From Candidatus Ruminimicrobiellum bubulum (GTDB taxonomy: Bacteria > Elusimicrobiota > Endomicrobiia > Endomicrobiales > Endomicrobiaceae), in contig JAGCCP010000006.1 of assembly GCA_017651625.1 (NCBI GenBank), positions 1 to 64,000 on the forward strand: a stretch of DNA of 64,000 nt, written 5' to 3'. Every line of letters starts with the position of its first letter. Position 1 is the first letter of the stretch. Under the pieces are notes generated by a model. That model made no database searches and was not told the origin of the DNA. It saw only the letters and a program-made list of their open reading frames with translations. A program made the position numbers and the translations under genes. Shown piece by piece: positions 36,734 to 48,123 of this stretch.

Positions 36734-38104
36734 TTATCGTATTGCTTGTATTGCACTATGAACATTTGTTACACCGATAATTTCAATTTTACCTTTATAA
36801 TTTAAACTCTTTAAATTGCTTTTAGGTATTATAGCTTTTTTAAATCCTAACTTTTCGGCTTCGGTTAATCTTTCTCTTATTTGAGATACCGCTCTTACCT
36901 CTCCGGCAAGTCCTACTTCGCCGAAAATAACCGTTTTATCGGGACAAACAACTCCGTTGTTTGCCGAAGCTATTGCACATGCTATAGCTAAATCCGATGC
37001 TGTTTCTTTTATTTTTATACCGCCTACAACATTTATAAACACATCTTGATTGTCGAGCGGTATACCAATTCTTTTTTCAAGAACGGCAATAATTATTATT
37101 ACTCTGTTCAAATCGTATCCGGAAACCATTCTTCTCGGTAATCCGAAATTTGTTCTTGCAACAAGAGACTGAATTTCTATGAGTAACGGTCTTGTCCCTT
37201 CTATTGAAGTTGTTATTACATTTCCTGCAACCGTATTGGAATTTTCACTTAAAAATATCATCGAAGGGTTAGCAACTTCGCAAAGACCGTTAGCTTTCAT
37301 TTCAAAAATTCCTATTTCACTTGTAGGTCCGAACCTGTTCTTATATGCTCTTAAAATCCTATATATTTGTTGCTTTTCGTTTTCAAAATATAAAACGGTA
37401 TCAACAATATGTTCCAAAATTCTCGGACCTGCCAAATCACCGTCTTTAGTTACGTGTCCCAATATAAAAACCGTTATATGTTGAGATTTTGCTATTCTTA
37501 AAAGTTCCGCCGAACATTCTCTAACTTGTCCTACCGATCCCGGAGCAGACGTAAATTCCGGATGATAAGTTGTTTGTATTGAATCTATAACCAAAAATTT
37601 CGGTTGTATCTTATTTATAGCCGAAACTATATTTTCGAGATTTGTTTCGGAAGCAAGAAAAATATTATCCTTTGAAATATTTAATCTTTCCGCTCTGGAT
37701 TTTACTTGTGAAAGAGATTCTTCTCCCGATATATATAATACTGTTCCTACTTTAGAAAGAGCTCCGGAAATCTGTAACATTAATGTGGATTTCCCTATGC
37801 CCGGTGCACCGCCAAGCAAAGTTAAAGAACCTGGAACGATTCCTCCGCCTATCATGTGGTCGAATTCTTTAATTCCGGTCTTTATTCTTTCAAAGCTTTT
37901 AACCGCAACATCGTTTAACGGAAACGTGCCTGAAGAAAATCCTGTTAACTGTCTTGTTGATTGATTTGAAGATAAAATCGGTTCTTGTTTTTCTTCTACG
38001 AAGGTGTTCCACTTTGAACATCCCGGACACTTTCCTAACCATTTCGGAGATTCATAACCGCAACTTTGACATACAAATACTGTTTTAACTTTTTTAGATT
38101 TCAT
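36734..38104 (-). CDS. radA: DNA repair protein RadA (Sms)
   Basis: A 456-residue protein with the three RadA parts: an N-terminal C4 zinc finger (Cys12, Cys15, Cys26, Cys29), a RecA-like ATPase with Walker A GGAPGIGKST (residues 98-107) and the RadA-specific KNRFG motif in AYKNRFGPTSEIG, and a C-terminal Lon-like domain ending in 'IIGVTNVHSAIQAIR'. It promotes branch migration in recombinational repair. Its ATG is six bases after the MCE gene's stop and lacks a clear Shine-Dalgarno sequence, so translation probably depends on coupling. Confidence 0.97.
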   Translation of the reverse strand: MKSKKVKTVFVCQSCGYESPKWLGKCPGCSKWNTFVEEKQEPILSSNQSTRQLTGFSSGTFPLNDVAVKSFERIKTGIKEFDHMIGGGIVPGSLTLLGGAPGIGKSTLMLQISGALSKVGTVLYISGEESLSQVKSRAERLNISKDNIFLASETNLENIVSAINKIQPKFLVIDSIQTTYHPEFTSAPGSVGQVRECSAELLRIAKSQHITVFILGHVTKDGDLAGPRILEHIVDTVLYFENEKQQIYRILRAYKNRFGPTSEIGIFEMKANGLCEVANPSMIFLSENSNTVAGNVITTSIEGTRPLLIEIQSLVARTNFGLPRRMVSGYDLNRVIIIIAVLEKRIGIPLDNQDVFINVVGGIKIKETASDLAIACAIASANNGVVCPDKTVIFGEVGLAGEVRAVSQIRERLTEAEKLGFKKAIIPKSNLKSLNYKGKIEIIGVTNVHSAIQAIR

Positions 38105-38109
38105 ATTTT

Positions 38110-39459
38110 TTATTTCGAACTTGCCGCCGCTATACCTGCAACACCGAATATACTTGCAAGATCTTCATCGGTAACTTTAAGTTTAATGTACGGCATAACG
38201 TTTGTTTTTGTAAGTGTGTCTTCAACTTGAACACCGACATATAACCAGTTGAAGATGCCGAGTCTTGCACCAAGCACAATATTCGGCTTATCTCTGTCGG
38301 GATCATCTTTCTTGGCTGTTTCTGTTCTGAATATTGCTTCTGCATTAATATAAAGTCTTCTCATAGGACCATATATCTTATCAAACGGAGACCAACCTAC
38401 ACCCACACCGCCTTTACTTCTCATAACACCGCCATAAGCTTCAAAGTTTTCCGATCTGAAGCCCATGAGAGCATCAATCTTGTTCATGTTGTTTCGTTCA
38501 AATTCATCATCTTCGTTTGTATAATTACCGATATTGTTTATACCGATATAATAGAATTTATGATTTGTCGGTCTAAATCTGATACCGAAATCGTTACGAT
38601 ATTTTTCGTTTCTTGTATCAAATTTACCCATGTATTCCCAATCGATTTCAAGTTTTTTAGTTCTGGATACAAACTGTTGTAACTGTTCAACAGTAACCTT
38701 AATATCACTAACGGTATTTTTAATTTCGCCGGCCATTTCTTCATCGTTTATCAATGTGGAAATTGTTCCGTCACCTTCGCTTATCTTTGTTACCAACTCA
38801 TTAATCTTTTCTGAAACTTTTTTGAGTTCAAGAACAATATCTCTTATATCTTGTTTGTTCTGTTGAGTTATACTATACAAGTCGGAAGAAAAGTTTTTGA
38901 AATTATCAATAACTTGTCCGATTTGTTTTTCTTTATCTGAAATTGTTTTACTTACTTTTTTAAGATTTTCTACTGTATCGTAAAGATTTTGGAAGAAATC
39001 TTTGTTTAAGCCGCTGGAAGCATTACCCAAAACTTCATCAACTTTTTTCACTGCATTTTCTATCAAATCTTCAAGAGATGCTGTCTTTGCGGCATTAACA
39101 GTTCCTCCGGGTTCTATAACACTGTTTGTAGGAGTTCCCTGAGTAAGTTCTATATATTTTGTTCCTATTATACCCATAGAAATTATTTTTGCTGTTGCAT
39201 CGGAATACAATGTTATTTTTCTGTCTATAACAAGTACTACTTTTGCTCTACCGTTTTCCAAAATAATATTTTTTATATTTCCTACATCAACACCGGAAAT
39301 TTTTACCTTAGATTTTTTTGGAAGACCGGCAGTATTTTCAAAATAAGTGTTAACAATATACTTTGATGTTAAGCTGTAATTGCCCAACATCATTATTGTT
39401 ATAAGAACAGCTATTATACCTATTGTTACAAAAATTCCAAGTTTTAATTCGTTAGACAC
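38110..39459 (-). CDS. MCE (MlaD-like) protein with C-terminal barrel-like domain
   Basis: A 449-residue protein starting at GTG behind AAGGGG. One membrane anchor (about residues 7-27) is followed by a single MCE domain (about 35-115: 'VNTYFENTAGLPKKSKVKISGVDVGNI', 'IGTKYIELTQG'). Then come a long helical/coiled-coil region (about 125-270) and a 170-residue C-terminal part with alternating strands ('FYYIGINNIGNYTNE', 'AYGGVMRSKGGVGVGWSP', 'NIVLGARLGIFNWLYVGVQ') that reads like an outer-membrane barrel. One polypeptide could thus reach from the inner to the outer membrane. Ordinary MlaD is about 180 residues and lacks this tail. The neighbouring ATPase gene supports a lipid-transport role. 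The barrel call is inference. Confidence 0.85.
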   Translation of the reverse strand: MSNELKLGIFVTIGIIAVLITIMMLGNYSLTSKYIVNTYFENTAGLPKKSKVKISGVDVGNIKNIILENGRAKVVLVIDRKITLYSDATAKIISMGIIGTKYIELTQGTPTNSVIEPGGTVNAAKTASLEDLIENAVKKVDEVLGNASSGLNKDFFQNLYDTVENLKKVSKTISDKEKQIGQVIDNFKNFSSDLYSITQQNKQDIRDIVLELKKVSEKINELVTKISEGDGTISTLINDEEMAGEIKNTVSDIKVTVEQLQQFVSRTKKLEIDWEYMGKFDTRNEKYRNDFGIRFRPTNHKFYYIGINNIGNYTNEDDEFERNNMNKIDALMGFRSENFEAYGGVMRSKGGVGVGWSPFDKIYGPMRRLYINAEAIFRTETAKKDDPDRDKPNIVLGARLGIFNWLYVGVQVEDTLTKTNVMPYIKLKVTDEDLASIFGVAGIAAASSK

Positions 39460-39631
39460 GAGAACCCCTTGTTATAGTTTATAGTTTATAGTTTAACTGC
39501 CGAAGATTTGAGGATTTGAAGATTGGATGATTGGAAGTTCAAATGTAAAATTTGCTTCGCAAATTTTGATATTATTTAATTTTCTGTTTTGCCTTCCATT
39601 CTTCTAATCTTCTATTCTTCTATTCTTCTAA
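39460..39631. repeat. Intergenic hairpin and micro-repeats between mlaF and MCE genes
   Basis: This gap holds three tandem 'atagttt' words (39474-39494), a run of 'gaagatttgaggatttgaag'-like words, a perfect nine-base hairpin AAAATTTGC-TTC-GCAAATTTT at 39547-39567, and 'ttcttctattcttctattc' words at 39599-39630. There is no T-run, so it is not a classical terminator. A related hairpin lies at the hisG stop. Confidence 0.6.
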
Positions 39632-40420
39632 CTAATGCATCGTAAAAGACATTTCAACCGGTATCGGCCCTACACTTGAACCGTCAACAAACTGCTTTAA
39701 CATTTTATCGTTAACCGATTTAGGGTTAGCAATAGTCTGTTTTAGTTTTTCTACCGTTCCTTCAAAAATCACTTTACCCAAATACAACATTATTATTCTA
39801 TCCGCTATTTTATAAGCGGAATTCATATCATGAGTAACAACAATAGATGATACTTTTAATTCTTTCTTTAAATGAATTATAAGTTCACCTATAACGTCGG
39901 ACATTATCGGGTCAAGACCGGTTGTAGGCTCATCATAAAAAATATATTTCGGCTGATAAGCTATAGACCTTGCAAGTCCAACCCTTTTTTTCATACCACC
40001 GCTCAGAGCGGACGGTTTTAATTTTTCTATATCCGAACTTAATCCTACCATATTCAAACAAGCAGAAACTCTTTTTTTCATCTCTTCTTCGGATAAATTT
40101 GTAAGATTTTTCATTCCGAAAGAAACATTTTCTTCTATTGTCAAAGAATCAAATAACGCCGCTTCTTGAAACAAAAACCCAATCTTCTTTTGAATCTCAC
40201 GAAGATTCTTTTTATCTGTTTTTGTTACATCTATGCCGTCGATAATAATTTTACCGGAATCCGGTTTTATAAGTCCTACGAGATTTTTAAGTAAAATACT
40301 TTTTCCCGTTCCGGATCCGCCTATGATAACAAGTGTTTCACCATCTTTAACTTCAAGGCTTACACCTTGTAACACTTTTTTAGTTTCAAAAGATTTATAT
40401 AAATTTTCAACCTTTATCAT
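39632..40420 (-). CDS. mlaF: MlaF-like ABC transporter ATPase
   Basis: A 262-residue ATPase with Walker A GGSGTGKS, the signature ALSGGMKKRVGLARSI, Walker B KYIFYDEPTTGLDP and the switch His in VVTHDM. The SGGM-KRVGLARAI form and the MCE gene next door point to the Mla/Mkl lipid-transport subfamily. It should power lipid movement between the membranes. A short C-terminal extension ends in 'GPIPVEMSFTMH'. The usual MlaE permease gene is not adjacent on either side and must lie elsewhere if present. The ATG has no Shine-Dalgarno sequence and sits nine bases after a -10 box. Confidence 0.9.
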   Translation of the reverse strand: MIKVENLYKSFETKKVLQGVSLEVKDGETLVIIGGSGTGKSILLKNLVGLIKPDSGKIIIDGIDVTKTDKKNLREIQKKIGFLFQEAALFDSLTIEENVSFGMKNLTNLSEEEMKKRVSACLNMVGLSSDIEKLKPSALSGGMKKRVGLARSIAYQPKYIFYDEPTTGLDPIMSDVIGELIIHLKKELKVSSIVVTHDMNSAYKIADRIIMLYLGKVIFEGTVEKLKQTIANPKSVNDKMLKQFVDGSSVGPIPVEMSFTMH

Positions 40421-42433: not shown

Positions 42434-43477
42434 ATGAAAAAACTTTTTTTGTCGGTAAGTCTTATTATGTTGTTATCTGCAGTATCATCGTTTGCAATGG
42501 GTGCATTTCCGAGAAAACAAGTGCCTGTTGCGGCATTATCCGGAGCATACTCCAATCAAACAAATGTAACTAAAAACTCGTTCAACAATATGGAACTTAC
42601 AAGAATAAAAACACAAGAACAACAGGAAGATAAAAAAAGTATTTTGGATGGTGTTTTTTTAAATGTTTACGGTAACACGGAAAAGGTTGAAACCAAGGGT
42701 TACAATCGTATAGAAGGAAAAGTCGATAACGATGTGTACGGGACAATAGCAGGAGTGGATTTAGCAATAAATAAAAATACCACGGCACAAGTGTATTTAG
42801 GTTATATGGGTTCTAAACAAAAATATCAAGAATACTGCCCGGATGGATTTGGTGGTGGAGAATCTACAAATGTTAGTATGTCTCAAAAAGCTTTTGTTTT
42901 CGGTTTAGGCGGTATGTGGACAAAAGAATCTTATTTTGTCGAAGCCGGATTAAATATTGCCAAAAATCAATTAGAATTAAACCACGAAACCAATACAGGT
43001 GATACTGAAACATTAAATTATTCCGTAGCGGTAAAAGGCGGATATGATATCAAAGTAGGTAAAAACTTTATAATTCAACCGAATTTGATGTTGATTTATT
43101 TAAGAATGGATACAAAAGATATAAATCTTTTTGTGTTTGATGATGGATTTGTCGGAGACTATGTTAACATTAATTCACATACGGACAATATAAAATTTTT
43201 TCATATAGAACCTGCCGTTAAAGCTAAATTTGATTGGATAAACGGATGGACACCTTATGCAGTAGTATCTGCGGCATTCAATGATTGTAAAGTTTCATCA
43301 AAGAACACTGAAGATAGAAATAATCCAGATTTGGAAATTGATACATATTATGAAGCAAGTATCGGTATAGAAAAAGCATTTAATAAACTTCCGTTAAGTG
43401 GGTATGTTCAGGTTATAGGAACAACAGGTTCTAAAGAAGGTATAGGATTTGATATAGGTGCAAAATATTCCTTTTAA
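42434..43477 (+). CDS. Autotransporter-type outer membrane beta-barrel protein without passenger
   Basis: A 347-residue protein starting behind AAGGAG with a signal peptide (MKKLFLSVSLIMLLSAVSSFA). After a short linker, alternating strands run to a C-terminal Phe preceded by 'GIGFDIGAKYSF', the outer-membrane sorting signature. Segments 'GTIAGVDLAINKNTTAQVYLGYMGSKQ', 'GKNFIIQPNLMLIYL' and 'WINGWTPYAVVSAAFN' closely parallel the C-terminal barrel of the large autotransporter at 44313-48023, so the two are paralogues. The passenger is reduced to about 50 residues, so it may be a stand-alone porin-like barrel or a remnant. A terminator follows. Confidence 0.85.
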   Translation: MKKLFLSVSLIMLLSAVSSFAMGAFPRKQVPVAALSGAYSNQTNVTKNSFNNMELTRIKTQEQQEDKKSILDGVFLNVYGNTEKVETKGYNRIEGKVDNDVYGTIAGVDLAINKNTTAQVYLGYMGSKQKYQEYCPDGFGGGESTNVSMSQKAFVFGLGGMWTKESYFVEAGLNIAKNQLELNHETNTGDTETLNYSVAVKGGYDIKVGKNFIIQPNLMLIYLRMDTKDINLFVFDDGFVGDYVNINSHTDNIKFFHIEPAVKAKFDWINGWTPYAVVSAAFNDCKVSSKNTEDRNNPDLEIDTYYEASIGIEKAFNKLPLSGYVQVIGTTGSKEGIGFDIGAKYSF

Positions 43478-44312: not shown

Positions 44313-47300
44313 TTAGAAAGCGTATTTGATTCCTAAATTAAATCCTACTCCGCTTCTTGAACCGCTCTTTCCGCTGACTTGTCCGTAACAGCTCCAAGGA
44401 CTATTCAAGAAATCTTTACTTACTCCGACCCCATACTCGAAATAAGGATCCATTTCCAAACTTTTTACTTTATTTCCGTTTATTTTTGTTGATGTTTCAC
44501 CTGTGTTTATTGCTATATCAAATAATCCGTATGGTGCCCATCCGTTTGTTAAACTTAAATCCAATCTTAGTCCGGGTTGAATTAATATATTGCTTATTCC
44601 ATCGTCTTCTATTTTGTTACCTTGAACATTTGTGAAATCGTTTGAAGTTGAACCGATATACATCAATATAATATTGGGTTGCAAGGTGAAATTTTTTCCC
44701 AAATCAAAATCGTAACCGGTTTTAAGTCCTAAAGAATAAGTAATGTTATCAATATCATCCGAACCTAAATCGTTATCGGCAGTTACCTTGTTGGTTCCCG
44801 CATTAACAGTTGCACCTAAATACCATTTGTCTTTTATTAATGTTCCGGTTACACCTAACATGTAGTTTGTTTGATTTGTTTTTACGGAATTGAATTCTTG
44901 TTTTCCTCCTGTATATCCCAAATAAAAAGATAATAATTTGTCTTTTCCTGCCGGTAAATCTATTCCTGCGAGAGTTCCGTACATTGTATTATCCACTTTC
45001 GAATCGGCACCTACATCAACAGTATCACTTACAACATAAGGTCTTAACCATAAAGCTCTTTCAATGCTTCCGCCTTGTTCAAAAACTTGGTTGGTGTTTG
45101 CTGAAGCATATAACGGTGTTTTTGCAGCTGCTCTTGTTTGTGAAACTTTGTTATCTATGTTTGCAAACGATTGGTTTGCTACAGTCACTTGCGATAAATA
45201 TCCGCCGGCCAATCCCGATACTGCAGATTCGTTGGATATAGGATTTTCTTTGCCTCGTACGAAACTCATGTTACCGGTTTCTTTATCGTAACTTGCATCA
45301 TATTCATACATAACCGAATATGCTTTATCTACAGATTTCACGATACCTTTTAAAGTGTTTCCTGTTATAAAATCTAAACTTATTTCTTCTTTTTTGTCAG
45401 AATCTTTCGTAATATTGATTGCTGTTACATTTACTTTTCCGTCTCCAGAAAAATTGTTTGCCGTTATTGTGTCCATTTTTTCATTCTTTAAATCGGCATC
45501 AATTTTTAAATTTAAGGTATCAGTCACTTTCAAACTGTTTGCAAATTCATAATCTTGTATTACGGAATTTGCAAAATCTATTGTTGCACCGGAAATATCA
45601 TAGGTGCAGTTTGAATTAAAAAAAGTTCCGTTTTCTCCTAATTGCACATATGCTCCGTTAATATTTATTTTTCCTGTGTAGTCGGACATATCCGCATTCA
45701 ATATTATTTTCGAAAAATCGTCAAATATACCTAAAATAACATAATCATAAGAGTCAAACCATAGTTCGCTATCAGAATCATAAGAAACAAGCTTGTCGTT
45801 AAAAATTACATTTGCGGCACCGGTTACAAAAGCCATCCCTCCGCCAACATTAAATATTGCGATATCGTTTCCTGTAAATTCAATATCTTCACTCATTGCA
45901 AAAAATTTTAAGCTTCCATAATTGTATATTGCCGAATTGTTATTATTTATAAACTTTGCCCCATTTCTAAAAAATATCTCGGCATCATTATCATTATATA
46001 TTGCACTGCCTTGGTATCCTTGGTTAGAAATAAAAGTTGCATTTTTCTCGAAATCGATAACCCCTTGGTTATTAATTGCACCGCCTCTATCGGCCGTATT
46101 AGATTCAAATAGTATATTTCCACCGAATATTGTAACAGAATCTTGCTCAGTTTGTAAAACTCCGCCAGAGTTTGCGGTATTGTTACGGAAAGTAATATTG
46201 TCTCCTGTATGCATATATGATTTTTTATTACCATAAAAAACCCCTCCTGCATATAGGACGGTATTATTTTCGAATGTTATGTTTGAACCGATCTTGGTAA
46301 GACTGTAATTATCAACTACTGCACCATAGTATCCGGAAAACCCGGATATTGTTTTGATATTTTCCAATCTTAATGTTTTTTCATCATAGCTGTTATCCGT
46401 GTCGATATATACAGACATTCCTTCTTTGCCGTTTGAGGTTATATCGTAACCGTTTCCGTTTATTATAAGTTGTTTGCCTTCTAAATTTCCTAATTTTTGA
46501 GACAACATTTCGTTGTTTGATAAATTGTATACTTTGTATGATGTTGCGTCACTTATAACTTGTGCAAATGTTTGTGCTTGCGGTAAAATTTCATAGTCAA
46601 TATCTGTATCATTTAATGTATCATTTAATGAAGTTTGATTTTCCGTAAATTTTATTGTTTTTCCGTTTTGAGTTACTTTTAAATCTGCATAAAGGTTTGG
46701 ACAAGGACCGTTTGAAGTAGATATCACAGTAAATGTTCCCGTATTATCGGTTATTAAATTATTTGTAATGTTTACATTTGTTAATGTTACTCCCGAGTAG
46801 TAATAGTTGTTACCGTCATTGTGGAAATCTGCAGAAATAGGAGCAAATTTGTCTCCGATTGAACTGTTTCCGCTTAAAGTTGCATCTATTTCCAAGAATG
46901 CATAACCGGAAAAAAAAGTAGGACTAACATCCGCACTGTCGTTTATTTTCCCGTTTATTAAATTTAAGGTTCCGTCGTTTGATTTCAAACTTGTGTTAGA
47001 AATTTTTCCGTCGTATCCCAATTGAAGCGTACTACCGGACTCTAAGTATATTTTTCCATTATATCCGGACATGTCCTCATTAAATATCGTTTTCCCGAGA
47101 CCTTCTATAGATATTTCTGAATATTCATTTTCAGATGTTATTCTGTCGTTAAATATTATATTTGAACCATAATTCGACATTAAAGTAATAGTTCCTTCAT
47201 TGTCATGTATTGCATTGGATACTCCGTTTGCGGTGTTTCCGTTAAACACTATATCTTCACAATCTGCCCACATTTGTAAATCGCCATGATTATATATTGC

Positions 47301-48023
47301 ACCACCATAATCGGTTGCGGTATTATTTACAAATTTTGTTCCACCTACTATTGTCAAAACACCATCGTTATATATTGCACCGCCTCTTTTTGCCGCATTT
47401 GAATCGAACAGTGCACCTTTGTATATATCAAGTACAGGTTTTTCGTTATCGGAATTGGAAAAGCCGTTATATATTGCTCCGCCATCATTAAGTGCTCCAT
47501 TATCTATAAATTGTGCATTCGCATAAATAAGTGTATTTCCTCCAAAACAATTTTCTATGGCTCCACCAAACATCTCAGATGAGTTAAAATTATTTAAAAA
47601 TTTCACATTGTTTTTTATTGAAAGTGTTCCATCTTCGTTAACTATGGTTCCCATATAATAATTTGGATCTGCATTTGAGTTAAATTCAACATTGTTTCCT
47701 ATTACGGTATACCCCTTTTTACTCCAAATGGTTCCTCCCGTATTCGATGTAAAAGAAGACCCGTCACCTATTTTTAAAAAAGCATCTTCAGATACAGTTA
47801 TCGCGAAAGAATCATTATTTTTAAAAGTAACATTGTTTAATATTAAAGTTCCTTCAACTCCGAATATTCCAGGATAATCATCCGTGGAAAAATCACTATA
47901 GGTTTGCTTCTCCGCTATTAAGGTTTCACCTTCAGGTATGTGTTTAAACACGTTTTTCATATCCGCAAAAGATGTTGTAGATACAAAAAGAGTTAAAATA
48001 AGTGATAGTAACAGTTTTTTCAT
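44313..48023 (-). CDS. Large autotransporter with Pmp-like (GGAI/FxxN) passenger
   Basis: The start is ATG 48023 behind GGAGG. It opens a signal peptide (MKKLLLSLILTLFVSTTSFA). An in-frame ATG eleven codons earlier lacks a site. The 1,236-residue product has a passenger with many polymorphic-membrane-protein motifs: GGAI at least five times (GGAIYNDGVLTI, GGAIYNHGDLQM, GGAINNQGVIDF) and FxxN often (FTSN, FVNN, FESN, FINN). That predicts a beta-helix. Two passenger halves repeat the same order ('LILNNVTFKNN', 'GNNVEFNSN'), suggesting duplication. The last 270 residues form an autotransporter barrel ending 'GVGFNLGIKYAF'. It is probably a surface-exposed adhesin, and it is paralogous to the barrel at 42434. 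Confidence 0.92.
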   Translation of the reverse strand: MKKLLLSLILTLFVSTTSFADMKNVFKHIPEGETLIAEKQTYSDFSTDDYPGIFGVEGTLILNNVTFKNNDSFAITVSEDAFLKIGDGSSFTSNTGGTIWSKKGYTVIGNNVEFNSNADPNYYMGTIVNEDGTLSIKNNVKFLNNFNSSEMFGGAIENCFGGNTLIYANAQFIDNGALNDGGAIYNGFSNSDNEKPVLDIYKGALFDSNAAKRGGAIYNDGVLTIVGGTKFVNNTATDYGGAIYNHGDLQMWADCEDIVFNGNTANGVSNAIHDNEGTITLMSNYGSNIIFNDRITSENEYSEISIEGLGKTIFNEDMSGYNGKIYLESGSTLQLGYDGKISNTSLKSNDGTLNLINGKINDSADVSPTFFSGYAFLEIDATLSGNSSIGDKFAPISADFHNDGNNYYYSGVTLTNVNITNNLITDNTGTFTVISTSNGPCPNLYADLKVTQNGKTIKFTENQTSLNDTLNDTDIDYEILPQAQTFAQVISDATSYKVYNLSNNEMLSQKLGNLEGKQLIINGNGYDITSNGKEGMSVYIDTDNSYDEKTLRLENIKTISGFSGYYGAVVDNYSLTKIGSNITFENNTVLYAGGVFYGNKKSYMHTGDNITFRNNTANSGGVLQTEQDSVTIFGGNILFESNTADRGGAINNQGVIDFEKNATFISNQGYQGSAIYNDNDAEIFFRNGAKFINNNNSAIYNYGSLKFFAMSEDIEFTGNDIAIFNVGGGMAFVTGAANVIFNDKLVSYDSDSELWFDSYDYVILGIFDDFSKIILNADMSDYTGKININGAYVQLGENGTFFNSNCTYDISGATIDFANSVIQDYEFANSLKVTDTLNLKIDADLKNEKMDTITANNFSGDGKVNVTAINITKDSDKKEEISLDFITGNTLKGIVKSVDKAYSVMYEYDASYDKETGNMSFVRGKENPISNESAVSGLAGGYLSQVTVANQSFANIDNKVSQTRAAAKTPLYASANTNQVFEQGGSIERALWLRPYVVSDTVDVGADSKVDNTMYGTLAGIDLPAGKDKLLSFYLGYTGGKQEFNSVKTNQTNYMLGVTGTLIKDKWYLGATVNAGTNKVTADNDLGSDDIDNITYSLGLKTGYDFDLGKNFTLQPNIILMYIGSTSNDFTNVQGNKIEDDGISNILIQPGLRLDLSLTNGWAPYGLFDIAINTGETSTKINGNKVKSLEMDPYFEYGVGVSKDFLNSPWSCYGQVSGKSGSRSGVGFNLGIKYAF

Positions 48024-48123
48024 TTGTGTGTCCTCCAATAAAATTTTTATGTGCATCTGTAAATATTAAATTCGTGAAGAAAATTTTAAATTTGTTTTTG
48101 ATTTAACAAATTTGGCAAAGAAT

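Follow-up and report, generated by a model that had tools for sequence, protein, structure and literature searches.

A long MlaD with a predicted outer-membrane barrel in Candidatus Ruminimicrobiellum bubulum and its relatives across Elusimicrobiota

Introduction

The closest described counterpart of the system studied here is found in Veillonella parvula. In the excerpts of the published study on which we draw (Grasekamp et al. 2023, PMC10665443), V. parvula MlaD is a 419-aa protein consisting of a membrane helix, an MCE domain, a helical region of about 150 residues, and a barrel of ten strands, and the organism is described as possessing MlaEFD only, with no MlaA or MlaC. In experiments reported there, the two ends of V. 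parvula MlaD separated, with the MCE part going to the inner membrane and the barrel going to the outer one (PMC10665443). Two other MCE systems resemble our protein in part. MlaD of Escherichia coli also has a membrane helix followed by an MCE domain; however, it is 183 aa long, lacks a barrel, and, according to the same account, works with MlaC and MlaA (PMC10665443). The mycobacterial Mce1 complex (8fed) likewise combines MCE domains with long helices, but is described as being built from six different chains that each give one strand to a small shared barrel, with no ten-stranded barrel in each chain (PMC10665443).

Here, we describe a long MlaD encoded in Candidatus Ruminimicrobiellum bubulum, a rumen member of the Elusimicrobiota. 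The window, that is, the whole stretch of DNA analyzed, comprises positions 1 to 64,000 of contig JAGCCP010000006.1 (assembly GCA_017651625.1; 64,000 nucleotides). The name Elusimicrobiota is absent from the main text of PMC10665443, the supplements of which may list the phylum, and a literature search judged by titles found no account of a barrel-type MlaEFD in Elusimicrobiota.

Results

The window protein combines one MCE domain, long helices, and a strand-rich tail

The mlaD gene and its neighbors are listed in Table 1. PF02470 matched the product in one stretch, with 59.0 bits against a Pfam cut-off of 25.1 (E value, 5.6e-16). Two curated models scored below their cut-offs, namely TIGR04430, the proteobacterial MlaD equivalog (87.9 bits; cut-off, 135), and TIGR00996, the Mce paralog family (98.4 bits; cut-off, 140.5). 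The best match among PDB sequences was 8fed_B (E value, 3.1e-26), and solved MlaD structures match the part of the window protein that comprises the N-terminal helix and the MCE domain. The closest named relative in a single-protein scan, which returned 6 loci, was from Candidatus Ruminimicrobiellum ovillum (93% identity), followed by rumen contigs labeled "Elusimicrobia bacterium" (88 to 89%).

Table 1. Features of the mla locus in the window (residues are those of the mlaD product)
Feature	Position	Strand	Basis
mlaD, long form with predicted C-terminal barrel	38110..39459	-	ORF; GTG start; 449 aa
N-terminal helix, residues 3-25	39385..39453	-	AlphaFold2; presumed inner-membrane anchor
MCE/MlaD domain, residues 33-108	39136..39363	-	PF02470
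Helical stretch, residues 129-265	38665..39075	-	AlphaFold2, mostly low pLDDT; presumed periplasmic tunnel
Ten-stranded C-terminal domain, residues 271-430	38170..38649	-	predicted outer-membrane barrel; AlphaFold2, alternation, structural matches
C-terminal helix, residues 431-447	38119..38169	-	AlphaFold2 and alignment; conserved D431, D433, G439
mlaF, ABC ATPase	39632..40420	-	PF00005; NCBIfam MlaF model; place between mlaE and mlaD conserved in relatives
radA (presumed), operon neighbor downstream of mlaD	36734..38104	-	ORF; place after mlaD in linked loci (see text)

An alignment of 49 rows (A1) was assembled from the window protein and 48 full-length relatives, the latter drawn from the 52 ORFs of 420 aa or more in the loci collected and reduced at 85% identity. 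The AlphaFold2 model of the full protein built on A1 had a mean pLDDT of 70.4. In this model, the N-terminal helix is followed by MCE strands at residues 33 to 123 and by a run of helices assigned by DSSP at low confidence (mostly pLDDT below 50), and then by the ten strands of the tail, mostly with pLDDT values of 82 to 95. An earlier note on this DNA had read the protein as one MCE domain, long helices, and a strand-rich tail, and the ORF, the PF02470 match, and the AlphaFold2 model confirm that reading. Since a homologue of mlaD is present in 94 of 99 Elusimicrobiota genomes and all ten tail strands are occupied in every one of the 49 rows of A1, this architecture is not a product of chance.

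The tail is predicted to fold as an outer-membrane-type barrel

The tail was also modeled alone (residues 265 to 449, alignment A2), which gave a pTM of 0.81, a mean pLDDT of 86.3, and again ten strands with a final helix. This last helix is a predicted extra element relative to V. parvula MlaD, the two proteins being likened by the published description as excerpted here (PMC10665443). The confidence of both the full-length model and that of the tail alone rules out a disordered tail.

Foldseek placed OprF, OmpA, and OmpX-type barrels at the head of its matches to the tail, with low TM-scores. When the Foldseek list was realigned, the best match was the outer-membrane barrel OpcA (Z score, 16.0; rmsd, 3.5; 150 residues aligned), and the other top outer-membrane barrels were a Legionella porin (Z score, 15.4), Pla (14.3), and the designed TMB10 (13.2); OmpT entries followed at 11.5 and 10.8. 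OpcA, OmpT, and Pla are ten-stranded. The strands of the tail alternate between hydrophobic and polar residues, with a mean face-to-face difference of 3.28 compared with a shuffled mean of 1.36 and none of 20,000 shuffles as high, on a hydrophobicity scale that we adjusted to count tryptophan and tyrosine as membrane-friendly. Alternation was weak in two strands (residues 301 to 308 and 339 to 346). Because the strands of the MCE domain, which do not lie in a membrane, also alternate, this property by itself is no proof of a membrane barrel.

It is highly unlikely that the tail is a soluble periplasmic lipid-binding beta-barrel lying outside the outer membrane. Although a few soluble beta-barrels occur in its structural list (among them 2o62, Z score 11.8, and 4tq2, Z score 9.5), the top structural matches are outer-membrane barrels, and every strand has one hydrophobic face, with averages of 1.23 to 3.16 on our scale, and an opposite face that is mostly polar. 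We predict that the tail adopts a ten-stranded fold of the outer-membrane type, closure being judged from the matches to closed barrels. The ten strands, the pTM, the OpcA match, and the alternation all speak for the built-in outer-membrane-like barrel that the earlier note had suggested. An Omp85 (BamA-type) family protein is encoded in the genome, which fits insertion of such a barrel.

At the sequence level, the tail stands apart from the families searched. No Pfam family matched the tail of the window protein, and a Pfam scan of 49 tails returned five families with one member each; likewise, the tail had no match among PDB sequences or in PHROGs. A plasmid search returned 31 records that matched MCE parts only, with none covering 80% and no full-length relative.

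The genome carries the remainder of a minimal MlaEFD system

The NCBIfam MlaF model matched the window mlaF with an E value of 1.6e-52, which is nevertheless below the cut-off of the model. The ORF downstream of mlaD is one that we take from its sequence to be radA. The gap between mlaF and mlaD (39460-39631) is 172 bases long and contains short repeated motifs; the same two genes stand 8 bases apart in locus L079. Elsewhere in the window, 42434-43477 encodes a protein of 347 aa that carries a PF03797 autotransporter barrel domain, and 44313-48056 encodes a 1247-aa protein that has an end resembling this nearby protein and looks by eye like a full autotransporter.

No mlaE adjoins mlaF in the window, as the earlier note had remarked. 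The observation holds locally, but the genome does carry mlaE and the operon is merely split: in the assembly (58 contigs; completeness given as 100), a search of the genome found a single mlaE (PF02405; E value, 1.5e-71), which immediately follows alr on contig 53. A system without MlaE is thereby ruled out. An artefact of contig ends is also ruled out, with mlaE lying inside an 18,451-base contig and other genes preceding mlaF in the window. PF02470 detected one MCE gene in the genome, LpxC is present, and searches for MlaA (PF04333) and MlaC (PF05494) gave no match, while the controls were positive in E. coli and Caulobacter.

The mla operon probably broke once in this clade and independently elsewhere

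To place the separation of mlaE in context, the locus was compared among the 94 genomes that have both mlaD-type and MlaE matches. In 81 genomes mlaE stands beside mlaFD, with the two matches sharing a strand and separated by 761 to 4,229 bases, and in 13 it stands apart. Contig ends account for two of the 13, namely G045, in which mlaD lies at base 298 of its contig, and G009, in which mlaF is cut on a 7,045-base contig. The remaining 11 comprise five genomes of this genus, three from two nearby genera (G017 and G044; G031), and G001, G008, and G014.

The order alr-mlaE-mlaF-mlaD was found in all 29 linked loci drawn with their flanks, with alr truncated at the start of the contig in two of them. 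In 25 of these 29, radA follows mlaD directly, and in 2 it lies one ORF further. A genome read as the cultured species Endomicrobium proavitum (G020, locus L080) has the linked operon alr-mlaE-mlaF-mlaD-radA-aroC intact. The genus of the window genome retains both parts of the operon intact, alr-mlaE and mlaF-mlaD-radA, but at separate places. A tree of 46 genomes was built from joined MlaE, MlaF, RadA, and Alr, leaving out G093 and G014. The split genomes of this genus, together with G017, G044, and G031, formed one clade with a support of 1.00, while G001 and G008 were placed elsewhere. The simplest account is therefore a single break at the mlaE-mlaF junction in this clade, with independent breaks in the others. 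Since mlaE is on another contig and the operon is broken in this clade, its absence beside mlaF means little.

The window protein very probably belongs to a three-gene lipid transporter

The window MlaD shares with the long MlaD of V. parvula, as described in PMC10665443, a helix, one MCE domain, about 140 to 150 helical residues, and a ten-stranded barrel, and the two are similar in length (449 and 419 aa). The systems also agree in gene content, with mlaE and mlaF present and mlaA and mlaC absent in both (PMC10665443, for V. parvula). With one mlaE, one MCE gene, and no match to MlaA or MlaC, the genome fits the V. parvula design. The two differ in their surroundings according to the same account: mlaE is split from mlaFD in our genome, unlike in V. 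parvula, and the neighbors are alr, radA, and aroC here and tolC and tamB there (PMC10665443).

We consider it very probable that the window protein serves as MlaD, the MCE subunit, in a minimal MlaE-MlaF-MlaD lipid transporter of the V. parvula kind. In the proposed mechanism, the N-terminal helix and the MCE domain would be seated on MlaEF at the inner membrane, the helices of the oligomer, presumably a hexamer, would form a tunnel through the periplasm, and the ten-stranded tail would be embedded in the outer membrane, so that the protein would be anchored in both membranes. Lipids would then pass between the membranes without MlaA or MlaC; the cargo would be phospholipid and the direction retrograde. 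The earlier note's proposal that a single chain could bridge the inner and outer membranes is largely upheld as a prediction. The note had also contrasted the protein with an MlaD that needs MlaA and MlaC, as in E. coli. That contrast agrees with the lack of an MlaA or MlaC match here, but it is not new, having been published in 2023 (PMC10665443). The window protein is a further example of an architecture published earlier from another phylum rather than a new machine.

Barrel-bearing MlaD is the usual form in the phylum, and short forms also occur

In 83 of the 99 genomes, the mlaD match extends to residue 430 or beyond, in five cases with one stop within it. The full-length, barrel-type MlaD is thus the usual form in Elusimicrobiota, and the barrel is kept among the aligned full-length proteins down to about 22 to 26% identity. 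Nine genomes (G002, G004, G006, G009, G012, G015, G018, G024, and G027) instead have short, complete MlaD ORFs of 271 to 302 aa with no room for a barrel; of the others, one (G021) is cut by a contig end and one (G014) has a broken gene. None of the nine short-form genomes gave a match to MlaA or MlaC, and LpxC is present in all nine. Across the phylum, 1 of 99 genomes gave a match to MlaA and 3 of 99 gave one to MlaC. In the tree, the short forms (7 of the 9 were included) sit in group f10 with f13, with a support of 1.00, and in group f12, which is weakly placed. One or two losses of the barrel, or gains elsewhere, are possible.

The nine genomes with a barrel-less MlaD and no MlaA or MlaC match indicate that the barrel is not always needed. 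They favor a variant of the transporter reading in which the tail is an outer-membrane barrel serving only as an anchor or tether, with lipids running along the helices and entering the membrane elsewhere. A single ten-stranded barrel is also thought, in the excerpted text of PMC10665443, to be too narrow for phospholipids. Retention of the barrel in all 49 aligned full-length proteins points to constraint, yet it would be expected equally for anchoring and for passage. We give this variant slightly less than an even chance; because it is a form of the three-gene transporter, our confidence in the two overlaps.

Additional MCE genes were noted in some genomes. A second MCE gene occurs in seven of the nine short-MlaD genomes (L053-L061). 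Two genomes of group f11 carry a second MCE set (L119:3012-6219 and L120:1659-4866), consisting of an approximately 361-aa MlaE extended at its N terminus, an ORF resembling an ABC ATPase, an approximately 267-aa MCE protein, and a 189-aa probable lipoprotein; the lipoprotein and the ATPase were identified by reading the sequence. In loci L121 and L122 (G086 and G045), the MlaC matches lie next to one ORF resembling an outer-membrane efflux protein and another, large ORF resembling a pump, both likewise named from sequence.

The system is missing, decaying, or apparently replaced in a few genomes

MlaE is missing from 4 of the 99 genomes (G037, G088, G089, and G095), and none of these has a PF02470 match. 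The absences in G089 and G095 are weak, as both genomes are only 85% complete. In one further genome, G014 (main contig, 1.11 Mb; L063 and L064), the three genes are broken together: mlaD contains nine stops, mlaF is fragmented in three frames, and mlaE is fragmented. This joint absence and joint breakage count in favor of the three-gene transporter. In G014, alr and radA are open in the parts that were tested, and lpxC is fragmented. LpxC, found in 98 of the 99 genomes, was used as the LPS marker instead of LptD, the profile of which matched only 6 of the 99 and is apparently not broad enough for this phylum. The organism of G014 is probably a relative of the endosymbiont Candidatus Endomicrobium trichonymphae Rs-D17, in which LPS synthesis is interrupted by pseudogenes, as stated in the excerpted text of PMC4505116.

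These observations bear on the cargo. The ABC system might move a different lipid or a hydrophobic nutrient, inward or outward, rather than maintain phospholipid asymmetry, as mycobacterial MCE systems carry other lipids (PMC10665443, in the part drawn on here) and the window protein falls below the cut-offs of both the curated MlaD and Mce models. However, this is the sole MCE and MlaE set of the genome, and in the reduced genome G014 these genes and lpxC are broken together, which is what a connection to LPS asymmetry would lead one to expect. The joint decay is supporting evidence only, and weak, since decay is general in such genomes and affects other pathways too. On balance, we regard a different cargo as unlikely, and favor the phospholipid transporter.

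In G088, contig 96 (L065:1061-9121) carries, in order, dnaB, alr, MlaA, MlaC, an 832-aa MMPL-family protein, and radA, with the genes from dnaB to radA overlapping or closely spaced. Of these, dnaB, MlaA, MlaC, and MMPL were named by Pfam and alr and radA by similarity. The MlaA-MlaC-MMPL set occupies the slot that mlaEFD holds in relatives, and the tree places G088 next to barrel-bearing genomes, with a support of 0.96. We tentatively suggest, with confidence somewhat short of even, that the barrel-bearing MlaEFD bridge and the MlaA-MlaC-MMPL set, the latter seen in this one genome, may serve Elusimicrobiota as alternative solutions to one task. If true, this would be a natural swap of a transenvelope bridge for a lipoprotein-chaperone-pump route, beside a barrel-less lineage that lacks MlaA and MlaC matches.

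Discussion

With these results, Elusimicrobiota joins the groups with a barrel-type MlaD, and most of its genomes have this form. What is still of interest is the set of contrasting cases inside the phylum, where, in similar gene surroundings, the barrel is kept, the barrel is absent, the system is apparently swapped, or the system decays along with an LPS gene. The cultured Endomicrobium proavitum carries the intact operon. Such natural comparisons could help to decide the purpose of the barrel, a question left open in the text of PMC10665443 consulted here.
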